Below, piece after piece: positions 1-25,380 of a DNA stretch of 38,632 nt (positions are counted from its first letter, which is position 1; each line of letters begins with the position of its first letter). Origin of the DNA: Bacteroidota bacterium (GTDB lineage Bacteria > Bacteroidota > Ignavibacteria > Kryptoniales > JAKASW01); the NCBI GenBank assembly GCA_021825585.1, contig JAKAGT010000035.1, forward strand, positions 2,376-41,007, in the 5' to 3' direction. The notes below the pieces were generated by a model. It did not search any database and was not told the origin of the DNA. It saw only the letters and a list, made by a program, of their open reading frames with translations. Made by a program: the position numbers and the translations under genes.

Positions 1-239
1 CACAAGCGGGATGACCTCTGCGTGGGCTCTATCCCGCACAAGCGGGATGACCTCTGCGTGGGCTCTATCCCGCACAAGCGGGATGACCTCTGCGTGGGCT
101 CTATCCCGCACAAGCGGGATGACCTCTGCGTGGGCTCTATCCCGCACAAGCGGGATGACCTCTGCGTGGGCTCTATCCCGCACAAGCGGGATGACCTCTG
201 CGTGGGCTCTATCCCGCACAAGCGGGATGACCTCTGCGT
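1..239 (-). repeat. Tandem array of 36-bp tRNA-Val-like units
   Basis: Six complete identical 36-bp units (24-59, 60-95, 96-131, 132-167, 168-203, 204-239) and the last 23 bp of a seventh (1-23) run without spacers and continue off the window edge. On the minus strand the array follows the 3' end of the tRNA-Val gene with no gap. Each unit has the same length as the tRNA 3' half (240-275) and shares its outer parts: GGGCTCTA, the acceptor 3' strand, and GACCTCT. The T-arm is replaced by a hairpin of 7-bp stems (ATCCCGC/GCGGGAT) around a 4-nt loop, followed by GAC. This hairpin resembles the REP-like elements at 2471 and 29073. The repeated 12-residue ORFs here are a by-product of the period being divisible by 3. 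Confidence 0.95.
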
Positions 240-313
240 GGGCTCTACTGGACTCGAACCAGTGACCTCTTGCGTGTGAAGCAAGCGCTCTGAACCGACT
301 GAGCTAAGAGCCC
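239..313 (-). tRNA. tRNA-Val (anticodon CAC)
   Basis: The minus strand folds as a full cloverleaf. The acceptor GGGCTCT pairs with AGAGCCC. The D-stem is GCTC/GAGC. The anticodon stem CTTGC/GCAAG holds the loop TTCACAC, which places CAC at positions 34-36 (reads GUG, valine). The T-stem ACTGG/CCAGT carries the loop TTCGAGT. The discriminator is A at 239. CCA is not encoded: the next bases are CGC, the start of the first repeat unit. The transcript would run straight into the tandem array. Confidence 0.93.
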
Positions 314-24322: not shown

Positions 24323-25380
24323 GTGCGCCCGGCAGGGCGCATCTGCTTGGAGATGAACCTGCGAGAGCAGGTAAGTTCTTTACACGCCCGATAGGGGGAA
24401 GTGTTAGTTGGACGGTAAGGGTGCCTATCGTGAGATAGGATCTGAAGGAAGCCGCAGTCCCGACATACAAATAATTTTGACGGGAAAGGCAACTATCTTC
24501 GAAGTCCGATACCTGTACCGCGTGGCGCGGCAGGCGCTACGGAACATGCAGACGTATATGCGGCGGGCATAATGGTAGATGGGCTGGAGACAGTCCGCAC
24601 AGAAGGCACACCACAGGGTAGCCCACTATCCCCGTTGTTGTCGAACATCATGCTTGACGACCCGGACAAGGAGCTGGAAAGACGCGGGCACACATTCTGT
24701 CGGTATGCCGATGACTGCAACATTTATGTTCGGTCTGAGGAAGCAGGGAAGTGTGTAATGACGTCGATTACAAAGTTCCTTGAGGGAAAGCTGCGACTGA
24801 AGGTGAACAGGAAGAAGAGCGCCGTAGACCGACCGTGGAAACTGAAGACGCTTGGTTACTCGATGACGGGAGAAAGCAAGCCGAGACTTCGGGTTGCACC
24901 CCAGACGGTGAAGCGGCTTAAAGATAAACTGCGGGATATGTTCCGCAGAGGCCGAGGTCGTAACATCGTCAAGGTTATTGAGGAACTCAGCCTGATTCTT
25001 CGGGGATGGATTCAATACTTCAGACTCTGTGAAGTGAAAATTGTCTTTGAAGAACTCGACCAATGGATACGCCGAAAATTGAGGTGTACCCTATGGCGGC
25101 AGTGGAAACGGCCTTACACGCGAGCGCGTAAACTGATGAACCGAGGACTGGACGAAGCCCGTGCATGGCAATCTGCAACCAATGGACGAGGTGCCTGGTG
25201 GAATGCCGGTGCATCGCACATGAATGCAGCCTACACCAAACTGGACTTCGACCGGATGGGACTCGTCTCGCTCCTCGATACAATGCTCAAAATCCAGAAT
25301 CATTCACGAACCGCCGTATACGGAACCGTACGTACGGTGGTGTGAGAGGACGGCGGGAATAATCCCGCCTCCTACTCGAT
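24323..25380 (+). mobile_element. Internally deleted group IIC intron
   Basis: The 5' boundary GTGCGCCC fits the GTGYG start rule and is followed by typical domain I sequence. The 3' end has a domain V-like stem (CCGTATACGGAACCGTACG) and finishes in CCTCCTACTCGAT. It lies 3 bp beyond the T tract of a terminator, as class IIC introns do. At 1058 bp it is far shorter than an intact copy of nearly 2 kb. About 250 bp at the 5' side are joined to the second half of the reverse transcriptase, so much of domains I-IV and the front of the protein gene are missing. It cannot splice on its own in any expected way. Confidence 0.85.
24572..25345 (+). pseudogene. 5'-truncated group II intron reverse transcriptase/maturase
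   Basis: The remaining 257 residues start inside the RT palm (GIMVDG; EGTPQGSPLSPLLSNI), keep the catalytic YADD near residue 49, and continue through RT6-7 into the maturase domain X (LRGWIQYF, WIRRKLRCTLWRQWKRP). The fingers and first palm motifs (RT0-RT3), including the first catalytic aspartate, are missing. The frame is open further upstream (VYAAGIMV) but turns into unrelated intron sequence. No frameshift occurs in the retained part. Confidence 0.88.

Follow-up and report, generated by a model that had tools for sequence, protein, structure and literature searches.

The 36-bp repeats that directly follow tRNA-Val(CAC) in this Ignavibacteria genome are probably a satellite of tRNA-associated GIY-YIG nuclease elements, a family that we propose here: one that lacks an ORF, is reduced internally and has multiplied in tandem. 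In its full form such an element comprises a tRNA gene, a small GIY-YIG gene just behind it, and an incomplete copy of that tRNA, one arm or loop of which is occupied by a TC...GA palindrome. This anatomy is found at many tRNA genes. The link between nuclease and tRNA is specific to one clade of nucleases, whose active-site residues are conserved and whose lineages track tRNA isotype, and at tRNA-Val(CAC) itself some relatives have sites that are free of any copy. The array has the tRNA-copy part of this anatomy—its units are partial copies of the adjacent tRNA with an arm exchanged for a palindrome—and lacks the nuclease gene: a 36-bp unit has no room for a GIY-YIG ORF. We class it, accordingly, solely as an ORF-less satellite, comparable with one at tRNA-Pro(CGG) described below. 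The 38,632-nucleotide stretch of DNA that was analyzed is referred to throughout as ‘the window’.

The tRNA-Val(CAC) gene is intact and occupies positions 238–313 of the reverse strand; its CCA is not encoded. It is identified by ARAGORN and by Rfam (RF00005, 72.2 bits), and is the sole Rfam match at the array locus. Immediately behind it on the same strand come six identical units, CGCAGAGGTCA-TCCCGCTTGTGCGGGA-TAGAGCCCA (23–238), the first abutting the tRNA at 238, and then a partial seventh (1–22, also reverse strand) that is cut by the window edge beside a 10-N scaffold gap in the parent contig. Tandem Repeats Finder reports period 36, 6.9 copies and 100% matches for positions 1–247. Each unit corresponds to the stretch of the tRNA between the anticodon-arm end and the discriminator base, except that a 16-nt hairpin, TCCCGCTTGTGCGGGA, stands where the tRNA has its 15-nt T arm; in the first unit this hairpin lies at 212–227 (reverse strand), and it recurs every 36 bp. 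Window positions 240–275, within the tRNA, read GGGCTCTA, T arm, TGACCTCTTGCGT; the unit reads GGGCTCTA, hairpin, TGACCTCTGCGT. Both are 36 nt long, because the anticodon-stem remnant of the unit is 1 nt shorter. The unit can also be read as GGTCA-TCCCGCTTGTGCGGGA-TAGAGCCC, that is, with an arm exchanged for a TC...GA palindrome.

The initial annotation had described tRNA 3′ halves of equal length and common outer sequence, six full copies without differences, and zero spacer between tRNA and array, and in all of this it was correct. It had placed the array at 1–313; the array there is real, but the window begins inside it. The repeats continue for 340 bases past the window edge (parent contig G000:C6:2036–2375), where nine further units start, and the whole array (G000:C6:2036–2612) contains 16 readable unit starts, the 10-N gap and two 40-bp units. 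The copy number, with a scaffold gap inside the array, is at least 16. Outward from the tRNA the unit steps are six of 36, the gap, three of 36, one of 40, three of 36, one of 40, and the last unit. The 148-bp block [36,36,36,40] is therefore present twice, which suggests that blocks of several units were duplicated together. A decayed tRNA copy bearing hairpins follows the array (L009, about 1900–2035); its anticodon arm reads GGCGCG-TTT-CGCGCC, and two hairpins fill its T loop. The array has no spacers, and we rejected the possibility that it is a CRISPR. Elsewhere in the window, group II intron domains occur on the forward strand at 24424–25380 (RF02001 at 24424–24496 and RF00029 at 25309–25380).

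The hairpin belongs, as had been proposed, to a class of palindromes dispersed in the genome. Its core, TCCCGC-n-GCGGGA, occurs at 57 sites, compared with one for a reversed-pattern control; 15 of the sites are in the array and 42 outside, and in this dispersal over many genome sites the array hairpin behaves as REP palindromes do. The proposal had the hairpin type end in GAC; the GTC-flanked form is confined to the array (15 of 15 sites in this genome). A REP flanked on each side by inverted GTC/GAC was also considered, and occurs nowhere in the genome. Nor is the complete 36-mer present in the genome outside the array; its scattering at places unrelated to tRNA genes, which had been named as a refuting result, is not seen. 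Across the genus, about 12 of 20 double hairpins lie away from tRNAs, which counts against the satellite reading and indicates that the palindromes are a separate, dispersed class. One double hairpin, TGCGCCnnnGGCGCA-TCnGCC..., is found in the genus also without a tRNA nearby.

No terminator-like site was found between tRNA-Val(CAC) and the array, or within the array, and the two plausibly share a transcript. Could the array, then, be a functional RNA—a trailer, a processing decoy, or a source of small RNAs in the manner of rtT? The hairpins are strong (fold z –3.2 to –3.7; –3.2 for one unit, predicted), and in the predicted fold the AGAGCCC of the unit is able to pair with the 5′ acceptor strand of the tRNA. 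We nonetheless regard such a function as quite improbable. Among 100 genomes searched, the 36-bp array occurs in its own genome only, with one partial match in G003; a conserved role would hardly fit an array confined to one species, and in relatives, where there are zero copies or one, sequence and position differ between species. The array itself is probably without host function, tolerated because tRNA-Val(CAC) is intact.

Twelve other genomes of the genus were compared, and tRNA-Val(CAC) together with the next conserved ORF was located in nine. In four (G001, G004, G005 and G007), 116–191 bp separate tRNA from ORF, with no tRNA copy between them. In three (G010, G011 and G003), the distance is 297–322 bp and there is one copy, with a hairpin for its anticodon arm. 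In the genome studied here it is 869 bp. The copy count in these seven relatives, a check suggested at the outset, runs from none to one arm-swapped copy. The G003 copy also has T-loop hairpins and, at its acceptor end, a hairpin, GTCGTCCCGCTTTTGCGGGATAGAGCCC, that comes close to the array unit; loss of the stretch between its two AGGTC motifs would, judging from the sequence, yield that unit. In G010 the functional tRNA and its copy have a common, unusual acceptor, AGGGCCC, a sign of exchange between them. The assembly comprises 88 contigs and has its 10-N gap within this very array, features that might suggest an artefact, and yet synteny with relatives holds on both sides of the array, single-copy forms occur independently in other assemblies, and the 40-bp variants give the array an internal order. 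We scarcely credit an artefact.

Incomplete tRNA copies in which a palindrome replaces one arm or fills one loop adjoin intact tRNA genes elsewhere in this genome, in the genus, and in many other phyla; at least 14 isotypes are represented among the intact genes. Tandem cases include tRNA-Arg(TCT) (75 bp, three copies), tRNA-Asn (105 bp, three copies) and tRNA-Val(TAC) (140 bp, five copies). In G001 (L267, G001:C26, 1490–1960), five 96-bp copies of tRNA-Gly(TCC) lie upstream of the intact gene, and in each unit the anticodon arm CAGCCTTCCAAGCTG has become TCCCGCAAGGCGGGA. A scan of 84,980 genomes for the T-loop double hairpin GGTTCnGCGCCnnnGGCGCnTCnGCC returned 76 contigs. Of these, 56 have a regular second hairpin and extend the pattern beyond the genus; 47 of the 56 lie within 500 bp of an intact tRNA gene on their own strand, and none of one on the opposite strand. 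The search pattern selects T arms by itself, not the presence of an intact neighbor. These regular contigs represent 14 isotypes, nine are multi-copy, and in 13 a GIY-YIG gene lies no more than 700 bp away. In the second hairpin the variable pair is C-G in 57 cases and A-T in 20, and mispairs are few, so that the palindrome persists through changes of sequence. Several further arrangements were noted in passing. In G005 (L059, about 1480–1540) the intact tmRNA gene adjoins a copy of its own 3′ end that carries the same kind of T-loop double hairpin. Behind a tRNA-Arg(TCT) of the present genome (L156, G000:C33), 3′ copies carrying T-loop palindromes form an array that has no ORF and is likewise broken by a 10-N gap. 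Three stretches (L128, L060 and L035) contain a degenerate Lys-like (TTT) tRNA copy with a T-loop double hairpin, and no intact tRNA.

Integrases that target tRNA genes duplicate tRNA 3′ ends. The copies here are likewise tRNA 3′ ends, and might be taken for attachment-site debris. This we consider highly improbable: no integrase gene was seen by eye in the stretches near the copies, the units hold a GIY-YIG gene or no gene, and the arms are swapped rather than conserved as att cores. The double-hairpin pattern, moreover, has no match in 2.9 million viral contigs. A viral origin was set aside on the same search; the GIY-YIG proteins of the elements are weakly similar to phage ones.

A gene often found between a tRNA and its copy encodes a GIY-YIG protein of 75–110 aa, and commonly starts 0–10 nt past the tRNA. 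GIY-YIG domains are nucleases; those of related elements match PF01541. The present genome has ORFs of about 80–100 aa with this domain a few nucleotides behind three tRNA genes. At tRNA-Pro(TGG), the GIY-YIG ORF and a Pro copy with a swapped anticodon arm are present twice over, the stop codon of the ORF falling inside the D arm (GGTTAG) of that copy. At tRNA-Arg(CCG), the ORF and a 3′ copy with T-loop palindromes are likewise present twice, and at tRNA-Gln(TTG) the ORF is followed by a single copy of the same tRNA, with a swapped arm or a filled loop. A fourth locus, tRNA-Pro(CGG), has three units of 133 bp that retain the ATG of the Pro(TGG) ORF and its 3′ end but not the middle; here an internal deletion has turned the nuclease unit of tRNA-Pro(TGG) into an ORF-less array. 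The array contig, C6, has no match to the GIY-YIG profile (PF01541), and at tRNA-Val(CAC) the genus yielded no GIY-YIG gene. What speaks for descent of the 36-bp array from an ORF-bearing unit is, therefore, the precedent at Pro(CGG), together with the anatomy that they share.

The small GIY-YIG genes of the genus divide by sequence motif into clade A (the HNxG..STK type) and clade B (the GFTKRY type), a division with which the tree largely agrees. Across the genus, 32 of 47 clade-A genes lie within 500 bp of a tRNA on the same strand, and none near one on the opposite strand; for clade B the same-strand count is 1 of 24 (A versus B, Fisher p = 1.2e-7). The other 15 clade-A genes have no tRNA nearby, some of them being at contig ends. 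Where a clade-A ORF has a tRNA upstream, it is followed in 22 of 29 instances by a copy of that tRNA which scores above every control tRNA, a conservative figure, since a few controls were themselves miscalled copies. On the protein tree, which has few columns and many open forks, isotype changes 17 times, versus a minimum of 24 in 200 shuffles. The active-site residues Y, Y-x-G, R and H are invariant (48 of 48), and E is present in 47 of 48. Mirror forms also exist (L208, L186 and L102), consisting of a crippled 5′ copy, the ORF, and then the intact tRNA; a simple model of insertion at tRNA 3′ ends does not predict them. One contig (L206, G007:C20) carries several clade-A paralogues, with no tRNA found near them.

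Plain slippage offers another explanation of the Val array: the tRNA tail was duplicated, a dispersed palindrome happened to land in it, and replication slippage did the rest, the GIY-YIG elements at other tRNAs being unrelated. The shortness and identity of the units suit this account, as do the duplicated 148-bp block and the dispersal of the hairpin core. But tRNA genes of many isotypes, in many phyla, also have arm-swapped copies next to them, and Pro(CGG) shows units that bear an ORF turning into arrays that do not. We judge slippage unlikely as the whole explanation. The initial annotation had offered a slippage product or an rtT-like RNA, and the recurrence of such copies in the genome, the genus and other phyla, often with GIY-YIG genes, is something that neither predicts on its own.

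If the array is instead a satellite of the nuclease elements, it may have arisen as follows. By analogy with phage SegB, the GIY-YIG nuclease would cut tRNA genes, and breaks there, repaired between tRNA copies, would duplicate the unit in tandem. Dispersed TC...GA palindromes, by replacing arms or filling loops, would leave the extra copies neither tRNAs nor, perhaps, targets. Loss of the ORF would leave satellites, of which the 36-bp array is the smallest seen; its units would have lost the ORF along with most of the tRNA copy before multiplying by unequal recombination or slippage. More broadly, and more tentatively, the elements could constitute a class of selfish chromosomal element: a tiny, isotype-bound GIY-YIG gene behind a tRNA, self-protected by arm-swapped copies, that sheds expanding ORF-less satellites in Bacteroidota/Ignavibacteria, Patescibacteria and other phyla. 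We would place this somewhat below an even chance.

These tRNA-hugging repeats are apparently a widespread and undescribed family; the literature searched, which included little subscription or preprint coverage, yielded no description of chromosomal tRNA-GIY-YIG elements or of arm-swapped tRNA copies. The array is tied to a recurring, apparently unnamed structure, small GIY-YIG genes behind tRNA genes together with crippled tRNA copies, which accounts for some of the pseudo-tRNAs and assembly gaps seen in uncultured bacteria. Should the nuclease cut tRNA genes, these would be selfish elements resident at loci that are among the most conserved in bacteria, and their arm swaps a readable record of a copy becoming immune.

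Several known systems invite comparison. In Escherichia coli, tandem repeats of about 178 bp containing the 3′ end of the tRNA gene lie behind tyrT, the source of rtT RNA. These resemble the array in position and in including the tRNA end, and differ in that the tRNA tail is unaltered, no arm is replaced and no nuclease gene is known to be present. The RPE of Rickettsia are short palindromic elements dispersed in the genome. REP sequences (PMC3733652) are likewise short dispersed palindromes. The palindromes here differ from both in lying exactly in the loops or arms of tRNA copies, and in being multiplied within tandem units. To our knowledge, hairpin elements of mitochondria have no link with GIY-YIG genes or tRNA 3′-end arrays. 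The double-hairpin, or repetitive hairpin-forming, elements of mitochondria (PMC2800124) are similar in that hairpins are inserted at many genome sites, and different in being organellar.

The closest parallel is with SegB and related free-standing GIY-YIG homing endonucleases. According to passages of PMC13096335, SegB, an enzyme of T-even phages, is thought to cut in tRNA genes, and drives recombination-dependent tandem amplification of a tRNA-segB unit in phage T6; within the amplified unit segB is truncated at a microhomology with the tRNA, which removes the C-terminus of the nuclease. Both systems place a nuclease beside tRNA genes of many isotypes, and both produce tandem repeats of tRNA plus nuclease. 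Those SegB passages contain no arm-swapped tRNA copies or ORF-less satellites, both of which are present here (PMC13096335). SegB belongs to phage genomes, whereas the elements described here are chromosomal, encode proteins of 75–110 aa, and occur in many phyla; the similarity between these proteins and those of phages is weak, and cleavage is proposed here by analogy. With that qualification, the elements would be a bacterial counterpart to SegB-driven amplification.
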